Virus record (IMG/VR): IMGVR_UViG_3300034418_002820 | Span: 1-29,116 of that record | DNA length: 29,116 nt | Reading direction: 5' to 3' (one strand) | From: a virus | Shown: in pieces, positions 31 through 18,278 of the stretch | How positions within the stretch are numbered: position 1 is the stretch's first letter | Layout: the number at the start of each line of letters is the position of its first letter | The notes under the pieces: generated by a model | Told to the model about the DNA's origin: nothing | Database searches by the model: none | The model's input: only the letters and a program-made list of their open reading frames with translations | Position numbers and translations under genes: made by a program

Positions 31-357
31 TCATGTGAAAGCTGCCTCGTATACGTTGGGGAGTTGCTCCTCGAAGATGTCCTTGACGGCTTGAGCAATC
101 AGACGGTGCTCCAGCTGTGTCTCGATACCTGCGCGGATCTGGATGTAGTGGATCCAGCTGCGGATGCTGCCATCAATGTCAACAGGTGGTGCGGCGATGA
201 ACGCCATAATGAAACATGCCGTCGCAGCAAGGAGACATGGAATCATGAGGACACCGAAGTGCCCTACATAAAGGCGATTGTTGACAGAAGTCACCCAGTT
301 GAGATACTTTTCCCACAGTGATGACTGCTGCCTTTGAATAGCAATTGATGCAGTCAT
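31..357 (-). CDS. psbA: Chimeric ORF: photosystem II D1 N-terminus fused in frame to a ThyX C-terminus
   Basis: Residues 1-62 are an unmistakable cyanophage-type D1 start: the '[12 protein letters not shown]' and '[14 protein letters not shown]' segments, the first membrane helix (about 33-55) and 'AAPPVDIDG'. D1 should continue 'IREP...' for about 360 residues. Instead, from about residue 63 the sequence is a flavin-dependent thymidylate synthase tail: '[15 protein letters not shown]', then a [10 protein letters not shown] helix and 'EQLPNVYEA', to a stop at 31. The join lies near 166-174. ThyX carries an 'NGS-(L/I)-RSW' motif there, so short shared DNA (ATGGC, GCATCCG) could explain it. The D1 catalytic part and the ThyX RHR motif are both missing, so neither activity is expected. 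ATG at 357 follows the upstream stop by 11 nt. A complete but different ThyX is encoded at 20111-20752. The product could be a recombination remnant or a contig-end assembly chimera. Confidence 0.85.
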
Positions 358-13488: not shown

Positions 13489-14155
13489 CAATAATTTGGG
13501 TGGTAATGTTTTGGATAGAATTGCGTTCGATAAACGATTCAGAGTAATTAACGATGTCCTGTAGTGTTTGGAGCAGTCGTTGTTGTTGCGCTGGTTGCAG
13601 TCGCTCATGGAAATACTCATCGACCATGCCACTGGCAAGGTCAGACAAGAGACCAGCAGAACTAGCGATAATGCTGGAATCAATAACAGTCTCTCGGATG
13701 TTATTAGTTTCAGCAGCACCAACACGGCGAATCAGTTCGTCATTCTCTTTACGGAGACGACGGATCTCAGCAGCTTTGATCTCTTTGTCTGGATCCTCTT
13801 TGATGATCTCTTTGATCACCTCACGGACTTCAGGTTCAGCTTTGGCGTACTCACGGGCAGCACGGGCAGTTGGTAGTGCTTCAGAGAGCTTTTGAGCTTC
13901 AGAACTGTTGGACATGTCCAACAATCCAACACCCCTAGCTTCCATCAGGATCTCCCTACCTGTTTGTGAGTTCAGGTTGATTTCCCGATACCAAGCTTCC
14001 ATATTGCGACCACTGTTGTATTCAGCAGCCACGGCTTGACGCTTCATGTGGCGTCCATGCTTCTCAACAGCATCACCCAAGCGATACCAATCAGCAGTGT
14101 CAGCTGACGTTGGCTGAGTTGGTAACTCTTGAGTCAGTTTGACTAGATCAGTCAT
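13475..14155 (-). CDS. Hypothetical coiled-coil protein downstream of RNA polymerase
   Basis: 226 residues from ATG 14155, which overlaps the RNA polymerase stop by one base (TGATG). N-terminal helical part with 'WYRLGDAVEKHGRHMKRQAV' and 'NSQTGREILMEARGVGLLDM'. A long charged coiled coil around residues 105-145 ('EVREVIKEIIKEDPDKEIKA', 'AEIRRLRKENDELIRRVGAA'). Helical C-terminus ('LQPAQQQRLLQTLQDIVNY'). Tight coupling to the polymerase gene suggests a partner or regulator, but no family is recognised. Confidence 0.72.
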   Translation of the reverse strand: MTDLVKLTQELPTQPTSADTADWYRLGDAVEKHGRHMKRQAVAAEYNSGRNMEAWYREINLNSQTGREILMEARGVGLLDMSNSSEAQKLSEALPTARAAREYAKAEPEVREVIKEIIKEDPDKEIKAAEIRRLRKENDELIRRVGAAETNNIRETVIDSSIIASSAGLLSDLASGMVDEYFHERLQPAQQQRLLQTLQDIVNYSESFIERNSIQNITTQIIDVEF

Positions 14156-16632
14156 CAACAGAAAAAATAGGTGCTCTCAATAACGCTCTCAGGCTCAAGA
14201 TCTCCCACCATGGGAGGGGGAGTTGTTGACCCGATTTGCTTGCCCCAATCGACTAGGTACTCATGCTCCGCGAAGAGATGCATGTATGTCTCACGAACAA
14301 TGGCTGATAAACAAGCCATGTCAGTAGCACGACATAAAACCGAGTCATGTATGAGGGCCAGCGGGTGATCAAACTTGAGCGAAGAAAGACATAAGATGGA
14401 GGCATCTAGTGAATGGATCAGATTGGGGCTAGTTGCACTTTTATGCTTGGCAGTATTAACAACATCAGAATCTCCAGTTGCCACTGAGACCTTCTTAATC
14501 TTTCCAAGTAATTGTGTTTCAGCTCGCTCAATCTCCGGTTTCATGATTTTCTGTGAAACCTTGAAACCACTAGGAGTTGTCCAACACAGCTCTGTTGCAC
14601 CATTGGCTAGAGCTTCACTGACCTTCTCCTCAATCCAGTCCATCACCTTGATAGGACCAGGGAAAATGCCAGTTTCATTATCTCTATCCCACACTGCATT
14701 CCTCAATGCATGGGTGACAGCAGTAATGTGCTCTCTGTCCTCCTTTGTTTTATGAGGGACACCCTTATCAACAAGAGCATCCTTTACATAACCCCAATTG
14801 CTCTTAAACTTTGCATTGTAAGGGATAGTCATCACTAGCCTTTTGGCTACGCTCCTATCAATCTTGTCTTGCAAATGCTCAGGACAATTAGGTTTGGCAT
14901 ACTCTGCTACTGCTTTGTATGCATCTTGAGGTGATTCGCTGGGCAACACATTGACTAGACGAGCGGTGGAAGCATCTTTGGCAAGTCCACTCAAAATCTG
15001 AAGACCGCTACATGTTGCATCAACTGCAATCGGTAGTCCTGTTGTTGTTCTCGTCTGGTCAATTAACAGTGCGTTGTACTCCTCACAAGCTGCAAGGAAT
15101 TGGAACGGCTCATCCGCGACTTCCCAATCGCATATCTTGCCAAGTGGATCAATTGCGATTTGGTGAATGAGGTCTTCGTGATCGCGAGCCCATTGCAGAC
15201 GTTCTGCCATAGGCTTTTTATCCAAGCCGTAGGTGGTAGCAACTTGGAATCGCAGCCAATCAGCAGCTTCAGAGTCAGGCATCATCACCGCTTCATCAGC
15301 GAATCTGATTAAACTCTTCCCCCAATCTGTATCCTGTGGAGATAGATAAGGAGCTATTGGATACACCCTTCCACGGTAATCGAACGACCACACATGGTAG
15401 AAGCGCTCAACACCTTTGAAGCGTCGCATGACCTTCATTGTCTGTTGAGTCCTGACAGACTTCTTTTTCAGAGCATTGTTGCGACTATGCACATCAGCAG
15501 CTCGTCGGCAGTAGTCATGCCTCGACTCCTTGTTTGTCTCAATATCAACAGGCTTGGGAGGTAGAGGTTCATATGATGTGTGAGGGATGAACTTGGGTTT
15601 CTTCCCAATCGTAATCCCCCTTTCATAGAGAACCTCAGACACCTCAACCATGTAATCATTCAAGGTGTATGCCACCTCTTGGATCTTGTTGAGGAATTGG
15701 ACAGGGGCTTCCCCCTGTATACATGTCGGGTTACCCCGACGCACCATGTCATGGCCCCGCATCACCGCATCAAGAAGGTAACCACCAGGCTCTGTCAATG
15801 ACCATGGACGGGGAGGGATGAGCATTGGCCAACACTCAGCCGTGAACAGCTCTGCCTGCTCCATCATCTTGTCCTTGGCATCGGAGAACGATGCGCTTGG
15901 GATTAAGAACAGCTGCTTGTTCCTACCGTCACGAGTTTGTAGTGGTTCAAACCAGTCACAGGATTGGCACACAGCATCAACCAATACAGAGCCAAGCTTG
16001 ACTCTTGTTAGCCGTGGCCATGTCTTCCAATTGACACCATAGCGATTCATGAGTGTCTGTACAACAGTCACCTTCTGATCTGTGCCAATTGCACGGTGCC
16101 AATAGTTCTCCTTCAGGGTGTGTAGCAGACCAGGAGCGTTGGTCTGGTAGTAGCGGAGCTGGCATTCATTCTGCATTGCCCGACCAACTGAGTCGTAGAT
16201 GTTGGTGAGTAGTGCATCCTCTTCATCAGCGCTGAATACCTTGTCAAAGAGCACCTTGAGCGTGATTCCAGCAGCCACCAGAGGCTCGATGTCAAAGATA
16301 TACTCTTTGATTTCTTTGTAAGCAACACCTGCATTACCCTTGCGGAAGCGTAGGTACATCTCCTGCAGCTTTGCCTCAACAACTGGCAGCAACTGTTGGA
16401 TTGAGTGGACCCCGTACACCGTTGAGCTGGCGTAACTCTTTAGCTCAGCCTTGTCTGTAATGCGCTGCAGGTTCTTAAGACCAACACTGATCTGATTGAG
16501 CTCCTGTTCGTACTGCTTATCGGTAAGTTCCTGCAGTTCCTTGCTTATCGAGGTCTCGCTCTGCGATGGCGATCTCCCGTGATAAATCCTCTCCAGCTGT
16601 TTGAAGTTGGTTGAGTTGGTTGAGTTCTCCAT
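14155..16632 (-). CDS. Single-subunit DNA-directed RNA polymerase, T7 gp1-like
   Basis: 825 residues from ATG 16632; 849 if the ATG at 16704 is used. T7 RNAP (883) signatures are present in order: 'WSFDYRGRVYPIAPYLSPQD' (DxRGR), 'IAVDATCSGLQILSGL' (catalytic Asp of motif A), 'VAKRLVMTIPYNAKF' (motif B Lys/Tyr), 'ATSPNLIHSLDAS', and 'LALIHDSVLCR' (second catalytic Asp, motif C). It transcribes middle and late phage genes from phage promoters. The first ~60 codons overlap another well-formed small ORF, so the internal ATG at 16632 or a later start is likely. Codons at 15710-15733 ('NPTCIQGE') are repeated exactly at 20925-20948. A terminator lies upstream at 16762-16787. Confidence 0.95.
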   Translation of the reverse strand: MENSTNSTNFKQLERIYHGRSPSQSETSISKELQELTDKQYEQELNQISVGLKNLQRITDKAELKSYASSTVYGVHSIQQLLPVVEAKLQEMYLRFRKGNAGVAYKEIKEYIFDIEPLVAAGITLKVLFDKVFSADEEDALLTNIYDSVGRAMQNECQLRYYQTNAPGLLHTLKENYWHRAIGTDQKVTVVQTLMNRYGVNWKTWPRLTRVKLGSVLVDAVCQSCDWFEPLQTRDGRNKQLFLIPSASFSDAKDKMMEQAELFTAECWPMLIPPRPWSLTEPGGYLLDAVMRGHDMVRRGNPTCIQGEAPVQFLNKIQEVAYTLNDYMVEVSEVLYERGITIGKKPKFIPHTSYEPLPPKPVDIETNKESRHDYCRRAADVHSRNNALKKKSVRTQQTMKVMRRFKGVERFYHVWSFDYRGRVYPIAPYLSPQDTDWGKSLIRFADEAVMMPDSEAADWLRFQVATTYGLDKKPMAERLQWARDHEDLIHQIAIDPLGKICDWEVADEPFQFLAACEEYNALLIDQTRTTTGLPIAVDATCSGLQILSGLAKDASTARLVNVLPSESPQDAYKAVAEYAKPNCPEHLQDKIDRSVAKRLVMTIPYNAKFKSNWGYVKDALVDKGVPHKTKEDREHITAVTHALRNAVWDRDNETGIFPGPIKVMDWIEEKVSEALANGATELCWTTPSGFKVSQKIMKPEIERAETQLLGKIKKVSVATGDSDVVNTAKHKSATSPNLIHSLDASILCLSSLKFDHPLALIHDSVLCRATDMACLSAIVRETYMHLFAEHEYLVDWGKQIGSTTPPPMVGDLEPESVIESTYFFC
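15710..15733. repeat. 24-bp exact direct repeat, copy 1 (inside RNA polymerase gene)
   Basis: The 24 bases starting TCCCCC and continuing TGTATACATGTCGGGTTA are identical to 20925-20948, same orientation. Here they encode 'NPTCIQGE' on the minus strand, within a conserved part of the polymerase, so this copy is under coding constraint. It contains the 8-bp palindrome TGTATACA. Confidence 0.9.
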
Positions 16633-16699
16633 ACATTCGCTCTCGCTGCCGTGCAAGTCGGGCTCGGTTTTTTTGAGATTTTGTGAGTGGTTTTGCCAT
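16517..16699 (-). CDS. 60-residue basic/coiled-coil protein overlapping the RNA polymerase start
   Basis: ATG 16699 opens a frame with a basic N-terminus 'MAKPLTKSQKNRARLARQRE', then an amphipathic helix 'RMYGELNQLNQLQTAGEDL' and 'SREIAIAERDLDKQ'. This composition looks more natural than that of the RNA polymerase frame over the same bases (Ser/Asn/Thr-rich). Its ATG is 5 nt from the upstream polymerase-frame ATG. If real, it is the first gene after the attP/terminator and the polymerase starts inside it. Function unknown. Confidence 0.5.
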   Translation of the reverse strand: MAKPLTKSQKNRARLARQRERMYGELNQLNQLQTAGEDLSREIAIAERDLDKQGTAGTYR

Positions 16700-16761
16700 G
16701 TCATCGAGGTGAGAATTGCAGTTAGAACCGGGTTTTAGATCCTCTGCCTAGTGGAGGGGTA

Positions 16762-16790
16762 GATCAAATAAGAGAGGTGGGCCTCTCCCC
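16762..16790 (-). terminator. Candidate Rho-independent terminator after integrase/attP
   Basis: On the minus strand a 6-bp GC-rich stem (GAGAGG / CCTCTC, 16787-16782 and 16777-16772) with a CCCA loop is followed by TTATTT. It lies between the integrase-attP segment and the RNA polymerase gene and would separate early host-driven transcription from the RNAP operon. The stem is short, so strength is uncertain. Confidence 0.5.
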
Positions 16791-16828: not shown

Positions 16829-16868
16829 ACCTGAAACTAGCGCGTCTACCGATTCCGCCACATCCGCC
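16829..16868 (-). other. attP: tRNA-Leu 5' half: probable phage attachment site (attP)
   Basis: Read on the minus strand, the 40 bases match the 5' half of a bacterial tRNA-Leu: acceptor strand GCGGATG, TG, D-arm GCGGAATCGGTAGACGCGC, anticodon stem CTAGT and loop TTCAGGT with anticodon CAG. The sequence then departs from a tRNA: the 3' anticodon stem does not pair properly, and no variable arm, T-loop or acceptor 3' strand follows. So it is a fragment, not a gene. It begins 83 nt after the integrase stop. A published marine cyanopodovirus (P-SSP7) carries a similar integrase-adjacent match to host tRNA-Leu, interpreted as attP. The upstream bases 16869-16950 show nothing else. Confidence 0.85.
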
Positions 16869-16950
16869 AGTGGATTCCAGCGATTGGACTCGCTGAGAAT
16901 GTCTCCGTTGAGACCTTCAAATCGTAGCAGACGGGGGGTGTTAGACACGT

Positions 16951-17811
16951 TTAGATCAGCTGCAGAGCTTCGGTACGGGCCTTGTCGGTGACCTTGGCAT
17001 AGATCAGGGTTGTCTCGATCCTCTTGTGCCCTGCTAACTCCTTGATGGTCAGCATGGGTACACCAGATTCAGCGAGCCAGGTGCAGAAGCTGTGACGGAA
17101 GCTGTGAAAACACAGCCGCTCATCAAACTGGCACCACTTGTGAACCTTTCTAAAGGCTCTCATTAAAACGTCGCCGTTTGCCCAGTCATCAAAGACACGG
17201 GTATTGGGAGAAGCATGTTCCAGACGCTCCCGCATGATCGTGATAATTGCGTCATGGATGGGGATGGTGCGGTAGTTGTTGGCTTTCGTCTGAAAGTCAG
17301 GCAACCCACCAACATGGATCAGGTTGGCACCTAGGTCCACATCCCTTGCCTTGAGCTGTAGTAGCTCTCCCCTCCTCATCCCTGTGTAGGGAGCAACCAT
17401 TGAGATATCCCAAAGGTCACGCCTCTCAAAGGGGTCCAGACAGCCCTGTAAGAACTGTTGATGCTGTTCCTTGGTGAAGTAGGCACGACGGCTCTCACCC
17501 TCCTTCCTGCGCCTCAGCTTTGGTGCTGATGGGATCAGACCATCAAAGGCACAATGGTTAAGAACAGTGGACACAGCAGACACAACACGATTGATGGTTG
17601 CATCGCTTTTACCTTCATCTTCAAGTTCAATGGATGCTTGTGTGATGACAGGTTGGCTGATCTTTGCAATGGGAAATGATCTCCCACGCAATCGGGTGAA
17701 ATGACCCGCATTGATTAGAGCCGTCTTTTTACCATTGCCATGCCTCCATGTGTGGCGTGTTTTGAGTGTGTAATCAAGCGCCTGTCCCCAGGTCTTGATT
17801 TGATCAGACAT
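16951..17811 (-). CDS. int: Tyrosine-family site-specific integrase
   Basis: 286 residues from ATG 17811, which overlaps the MarR-like stop by 8 nt (a TTG at 17826 is less likely). N-terminal SAM-like core-binding domain (about 1-100). The catalytic domain shows the full set: Arg in 'TGMRRGELLQL' (R146), Lys in 'TKANNYRTIPI' (K176), 'HSFRHSF' (H236, R239), 'ELAGHKRIETT' (H262) and the nucleophile in 'LIYAKVT' (Y271). All residues are intact, so the enzyme should be active. It would recombine the adjacent tRNA-Leu attP with a host tRNA-Leu. Lysogeny in marine T7-like cyanophages is rarely observed despite such genes. Confidence 0.95.
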   Translation of the reverse strand: MSDQIKTWGQALDYTLKTRHTWRHGNGKKTALINAGHFTRLRGRSFPIAKISQPVITQASIELEDEGKSDATINRVVSAVSTVLNHCAFDGLIPSAPKLRRRKEGESRRAYFTKEQHQQFLQGCLDPFERRDLWDISMVAPYTGMRRGELLQLKARDVDLGANLIHVGGLPDFQTKANNYRTIPIHDAIITIMRERLEHASPNTRVFDDWANGDVLMRAFRKVHKWCQFDERLCFHSFRHSFCTWLAESGVPMLTIKELAGHKRIETTLIYAKVTDKARTEALQLI

Positions 17812-18160
17812 AAACGATGTCCTCAATTTGGTTGCGTAGAGATTTACCCTTCTCAGTTAATCGGAGGTACTGACGACGACGACAAGCGGGATCGGTGTAC
17901 TTCTCAATTAAACCGAGACCTGGTTTGCCTAAGCGGTGATAGTCAGATAACCAATCAGTCACACGTGATGCTGATGCAGTGCGTAGACCTAGGTCCTCTT
18001 CCATCGCCAACTTATGGCAATTGTCATGGCTGCATATGTAGAAGAAGCATGACACCAATTGACCTGGGATCTCTCGATCCATGAGTCTGAGAAGCTCAAA
18101 GGCTTTCATCAGCTTCAGCATTTGGACATCGGTGACAGCCCTCTTCAACGGATCAGCCAT
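17804..18160 (-). CDS. MarR-like winged-helix transcriptional regulator
   Basis: 118 residues from ATG 18160 (TTG 18175 possible). The centre and C-terminal half read as a winged helix: helix 'MDREIPGQLVSCFFYICSHD', HTH region 'LAMEEDLGLRTASASRVTDW', wing 'LGLIEKYTDPACRRRQYLRL', then 'TEKGKSLRNQIEDI', the last two being the typical MarR wing and following helix. Several marine cyanopodoviruses carry a MarR-family gene next to integrase/RNAP. With integrase directly downstream (8-nt overlap) it may control the lysis-lysogeny choice or early genes; the repeats at 18996-19211 are possible operators. Target is inference. Confidence 0.8.
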   Translation of the reverse strand: MADPLKRAVTDVQMLKLMKAFELLRLMDREIPGQLVSCFFYICSHDNCHKLAMEEDLGLRTASASRVTDWLSDYHRLGKPGLGLIEKYTDPACRRRQYLRLTEKGKSLRNQIEDIVYV

Positions 18161-18278
18161 AAGGTGGGAGGTCAATCTCTATCCGAATCCTACCTAGGTG
18201 GAGGTGAAAAGTACAGGAACACATGTACCAGTCCCATGAAGAGTCTTTGAAAGTCCTCAAATAAAACAAGTGGCTGCC

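Follow-up and report, generated by a model that had tools for sequence, protein, structure and literature searches.

A tRNA-Leu(CAG) 5'-half attachment site in a T7-like cyanophage lies between conserved promoter-like and terminator-like elements

The 29,116-nt stretch of viral DNA analysed here (the window) carries on its minus strand, in this order, a MarR-like regulator, a tyrosine integrase (int), a phage attachment site (attP), and a T7-like RNA polymerase (RNAP) (Table 1). The MarR-like label was taken from the annotations of int neighbours in S-CBP1, S-CBP2, and P-SSP7. The genome is T7-like, with a single-subunit RNAP (PF00940) and a T7-type terminase (Terminase-T7, PF22530). The integrase keeps all catalytic residues (R146, K176, H236, R239, H262, and Y271), which are invariant in an alignment with the S-TIP37 and P-SSP7 integrases; judged by these residues, it is intact and catalytically competent, in line with the earlier note, which had called it apparently intact. 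attP lies 83 bp downstream of int on the same strand (int ends at 16951 and attP starts at 16867). Elsewhere in the window (31–357, minus strand), near the contig end, one ORF is an in-frame fusion of the photosystem II D1 N-terminus (psbA, aa 1 to about 62) with the C-terminus of thymidylate synthase ThyX. No reference phage covering 80% of this ORF in one place was found, and it is either a genuine chimera or the product of an assembly junction.

Table 1. Window coordinates of the genes and sequence elements around attP.
Feature	Position	Strand	Basis
T7-like RNA polymerase, first gene downstream of attP	14155..16704	-	PF00940 E=1.6e-65; PF14700
Putative P'-arm integrase sites TCCACTAG, GATCTAA, GTTCTAA	16722..16755	-	CTA-centred repeats
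Intrinsic-terminator-like hairpin GGGAGAGG-CCCA-CCTCTCTT then ATTTGATCTA	16770..16789	-	Terminator scan
attP identity segment, tRNA-Leu(CAG) 5' half, 39-mer GCGGATGTGGCGGAATCGGTAGACGCGCTAGTTTCAGGT	16829..16867	-	Exact match to hosts
Anticodon loop TTCAGGT, likely strand-exchange (overlap) region	16835-16829	-	Last 7 bases of the 39-mer
Leader hairpin TCAGCGA-GTCCAA-TCGCTGG	16877..16896	-	Ends 9 nt before the tRNA; above shuffles
Extended -10 promoter-like motif TGCTACGAT (TGNTANNNT)	16921..16929	-	Conserved place in 57/60 phage clusters; predicted function
Putative P-arm integrase sites GATCTAA and TGTCTAA	16941..16957	-	CTA-centred repeats
Tyrosine integrase, 286 aa, ATG start	16951..17811	-	PF00589 E=2.3e-26; phrog_1
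Small transcriptional regulator upstream of int	17804..18175	-	phrog_9665 E=7e-40; MarR-like annotation in relatives

The attP core occurs once in the window even when up to 3 mismatches are allowed (chance expectation, none), and it was found exactly in 21 GTDB picocyanobacterial contigs. ARAGORN predicted a complete tRNA-Leu(CAG) in 20 of these 21 contigs, starting at or adjoining the first base of the 39-mer. These exact host matches confirmed the earlier identification of the fragment as the 5' half of tRNA-Leu(CAG), spanning the acceptor 5' strand, the D arm, the 5' anticodon strand, and the anticodon loop. Of the coordinates proposed for it, 16829–16868, the start was correct and the end was one base too far: base 16868 lies outside the tRNA, placing the boundary at 16867 and reducing the length from 40 to 39 bp, and the 40-mer made of the 39-mer and one further window base on its 5' side had no match in IMG/VR. 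After the 39-mer, the hosts read ACTAGTG (the anticodon stem 3' strand) whereas the window reads GCGACC, so the identity ends with the last base of the anticodon loop; an extension past 16829 restoring a full tRNA, which the earlier note had named as counting against its reading, was not seen. Consistently, neither ARAGORN nor Rfam found a tRNA in the 29,116-nt window. By the general anticodon-loop rule for tyrosine integrases (PMC8371274), strand exchange likely takes place at TTCAGGT. One mark of the T7-like cyanophage integrase/attP module, a 39-bp segment matching the 5' half of a tRNA-Leu gene from cyanobacteria without mismatch, is thus present here, and we identify the feature as a T7-like cyanophage (Autographiviridae) attP.

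The CAG-type site was collected from at least 119 IMG/VR contigs and 5 named phages (124 in total), and in none of the 124 was the 39-mer followed by a tRNA 3' half. Among the matches listed, all 112 contigs with enough sequence had int upstream of the site and on its strand, the 12 contigs without int beginning <360 nt upstream of the site; RNAP was located downstream of attP in 101 of the 124 and upstream of int in 12. In P-SSP7, attP corresponds instead to the 5' half of tRNA-Leu(UAA). This form was collected separately in 120 further contigs, which showed the same order as the CAG family except for 8 complete tRNA genes without int.

Among 400 Cyanobiaceae genomes, 222 contained the CAG form of the site (C and T variants), once in 220 of them. 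The double site in one genome (G327) was rejected as an assembly artefact, since it consisted of two overlapping contig ends of one intact locus. This set, which was scanned for integrases and extra site copies, holds one genome per species and would therefore miss rare strain-level integration events; in its 400 genomes, this phage was nowhere seen integrated at tRNA-Leu(CAG), and no stable integrated prophage, the mark of a temperate phage, was observed there. Intact prophages are likewise absent according to published work. In addition, for the integrase matches with retrieved flanking loci (23–47% identity, the strongest included), no tRNA-Leu(CAG) lay nearby. One picocyanobacterial genome (G052, locus L152) encodes an integrase 37% identical to that of the window beside a permuted tmRNA gene, a possible tmRNA-targeting relative. 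In Ca. Synechococcus spongiarum SP3 (L018:4420-4526), the other genome with two copies of the site, murA, the host leader, and the 39-mer are followed by 68 nt of non-tRNA sequence up to the contig end; the same MAG holds an intact tRNA-Leu(CAG) preceded not by murA but by a Fic-like gene. The 68-nt tail matched none of the phage sequences examined, and the broken copy may mark the junction of a different element or reflect a mixture of strains.

Integration of S-TIP37 and P-SSP7 in the course of lytic infection is reported by Shitrit et al. 2021 (PMC8776855). As described there, S-TIP37 integration at tRNA-Leu was detected by PCR and was abolished in Δint and ΔattP phages; it was rare (about 0.3–1% of infected cells) and integration was transient, with no stable lysogens among about 3 × 10^9 plated cells, and the same text reports no lytic-repressor homologues for the phage group. 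The earlier suggestion that attP and the integrase form a lysogeny signal finds no support in these published data on the same attP class or in the 400 genomes, where no integrated copy was seen at the site; expecting lysogeny from attP would mislead ecological inference. The rarity of integration in relatives and the lack of known lysogens would also suit a fragment that is a mere relic of host DNA and does not work as an attachment site in this phage, but the exact 39-bp identity to the hosts, the intact integrase, and a gene order shared by all testable relatives among the matches listed render this explanation highly improbable.

Joining the window in silico with three host loci regenerated tRNA-Leu(CAG) on the int side (attR) only, not in attL or attP. 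This outcome is as the earlier note had predicted, namely a host 3' half joined to a phage 5' half in a tRNA gene downstream of int. Since the tRNA is rebuilt on the int side only, the rebuilt gene loses the host promoter. Recombinant bacterial tRNAs keep their original promoter with very few exceptions, and element-driven expression is seldom met in bacteria (PMC8371274); for these reasons, we examined the int–attP interval for a promoter. Sites of the 5'-half type are indeed in the minority, as had been asserted: Islander lists 3760 islands with a 3' tDNA fragment and 159 with a 5' fragment (PMC4383910). Such sites raise the question of what transcribes the rebuilt tRNA, to which the promoter-like and terminator-like elements around attP offer a concrete answer.

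For this analysis, shared 8-mers were used to sort 116 phage sequences into 60 clusters. In 53 of these clusters, the extended -10 promoter-like motif TGNTANNNT occurred between -100 and -20, compared with 3.0 in dinucleotide shuffles (sd 1.5, maximum 7), and in 57 it occurred between -130 and 0; downstream of attP it was found in only 1 of 60. Its offset varied by subgroup (-62 to -65, -43, about -93, and about -121), the window copy, TGCTACGAT, being placed 62 nt before the 5' end of the tRNA. In P-SSP7, a perfect TGTTATAAT ends 19 nt before the tRNA half, and S-TIP37, the phage tested for integration, is without the TG of the motif (GTAGTACCAT). By itself, TGNTANNNT is weak, with 16 matches on the window minus strand, and its weight as a predicted promoter comes only from its conserved position among related, non-independent phages.

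On the other side of attP, a terminator-like hairpin with a T-rich tail was detected in 48 of the 60 clusters (1.9 in shuffles) and in none of 59 when a control stretch of int was scanned; the remaining 12 clusters were without a terminator by the rule applied. Both elements were present in 45 of the 60 clusters; shuffles gave 2–3 of 60. In the UAA family, TGNTANNNT was found in 14 of 23 clusters, a -10-like sequence in 20, and a terminator in 21 (0.3 in shuffles). The tRNA-Leu(UAA) attP family, of the P-SSP7 type, thus repeats the succession of int, promoter-like motif, tRNA half, and terminator-like hairpin.

A leader hairpin about 8–9 nt before the tRNA was enriched in the phages (score 12.9 vs 8.6 in shuffles, sd 0.6) and likewise in host tRNA-Leu leaders (14.7 vs 11.0), suggesting that the phage side is a copy of the host layout. 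Leader hairpins were judged by these scores against shuffles and not by covariation counts, the MAFFT alignment having lost register, and our confidence in this claim is consequently moderate. In Syn5 (L185:7540-7590), whose int has no attP, an apparent degraded promoter-hairpin remnant (GCGCTACATTCGG...GATCGCTGAGATTCG) lies downstream of int, as a single case. CTA-centred repeats flank attP on both sides, at conserved offsets in the relatives of about -88 and -78 on the P-arm side and about +110, +126, and +139 on the P'-arm side. At these fixed offsets they look like integrase arm sites; the first putative P-arm site of the window overlaps the int stop codon. The TCGCTGGAATCC block that adjoins attP on its upstream side is shifted away from the core by 10 bp, roughly one helical turn, in a subgroup of five sequences (L036, L067, L072, L075, and L077) relative to the main group, a shift that might fit the expectation for a protein-binding site.

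Together, the succession of int, promoter-like motif, tRNA half, and terminator-like hairpin suggests that a phage promoter probably drives the rebuilt tRNA while the terminator insulates the phage genes. In such a mechanism, the integrase would recombine attP, inside the anticodon loop, with its identical counterpart in the tRNA-Leu(CAG) gene of the host. Because the phage 5' half adjoins int, the rebuilt tRNA, made of the phage upstream region, the phage 5' half, and the host 3' half, would lie downstream of int and, separated from its own promoter, would be transcribed from the extended -10 promoter of the phage in the int–attP interval. The host promoter, at the other junction, would read into the host 5' half and phage DNA, and the conserved terminator would halt it before the phage genes. 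Phage control of the transcription of the rebuilt tRNA, which the earlier note had anticipated, is plausible given the promoter-like motif. Promoter activity, termination, the arm sites, and the crossover point are predicted from sequence, as is the whole mechanism for this particular phage. A promoter swap, in which the host tRNA promoter would drive the phage RNAP and make integration unstable, was dropped as the terminator-like hairpin lies between the two.

Both elements could instead serve ordinary phage transcription, the tRNA being incidental: the terminator would close an early int operon, and the promoter would help to transcribe the RNAP gene with read-through. RNAP indeed lies downstream of attP in 101 of the 124 contigs among the matches listed, and since another TGNTANNNT stands between the terminator and RNAP in only 1 of 60 clusters, RNAP may depend on the int–attP promoter. 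Against this, the terminator separates RNAP from that promoter, and both elements are retained, with tight spacing, in all 12 contigs whose RNAP precedes int, indicating that the motif is not simply an RNAP promoter. We therefore regard ordinary transcription as unlikely. A further alternative is that promoter, hairpin, tRNA half, and terminator make up a phage small-RNA gene of about 150 nt used in lytic infection, with integration as a side use. By its predicted elements, the locus would form a complete transcription unit even without integration, and strong hairpins lie near both ends of the predicted RNA; the whole RNA, however, folds barely better than shuffles (z = -1.3), there is little conservation outside the tRNA half, and Rfam gave no match in the window, making a small-RNA gene quite improbable.

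Transcription of the rebuilt tRNA from a phage promoter, with insulation by the terminator, may be put in a more specific form, in which attP is an insulated tRNA-repair cassette, the crossover separating its promoter, leader hairpin, and 5' half from its terminator. We consider the chances of this stronger version to be even. If it is true, tRNA-Leu would stay expressed from the phage promoter and the host tRNA promoter would be barred from the phage genes. The elements around attP are found in two attP families of abundant viruses that integrate without forming lysogens.

The 5'-half attP class is already published; what is added here is the conserved promoter-like and terminator-like layout, of which no description was found in the accessible text of Shitrit et al. 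(PMC8776855) or in the open-access papers searched. That text records attP in 11 of 13 integrase-bearing T7-like cyanophages, in groups I–IV, as 39 bp equal to the first half of the host tRNA-Leu and directly downstream of int, as in the window, which differs in that its CAG-type site is the C variant (AATCGG). The closest named relative, Synechococcus phage S-CBP1 (KC310802), has an integrase 58% identical to that of the window and shares the order of MarR-like gene, int, attP, and RNAP, but has the T variant of the 39-mer and divergent flanks. The pTN3-like archaeal integrases (PMC8371274) likewise use a tRNA-Leu 5' half, with the rebuilt tRNA expressed from element DNA; there, the integrase promoter is cited and int is split by integration, whereas in this phage int would remain undivided and attP is preceded by a distinct promoter-like motif. 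With typical tRNA-integrating phages and islands (Islander, PMC4383910), the window shares a tyrosine integrase, an anticodon-loop subsite, and a tRNA rebuilt on one side. Typical 3'-fragment elements keep the host promoter (PMC4383910); this phage brings the 5' half and has to bring a promoter as well.
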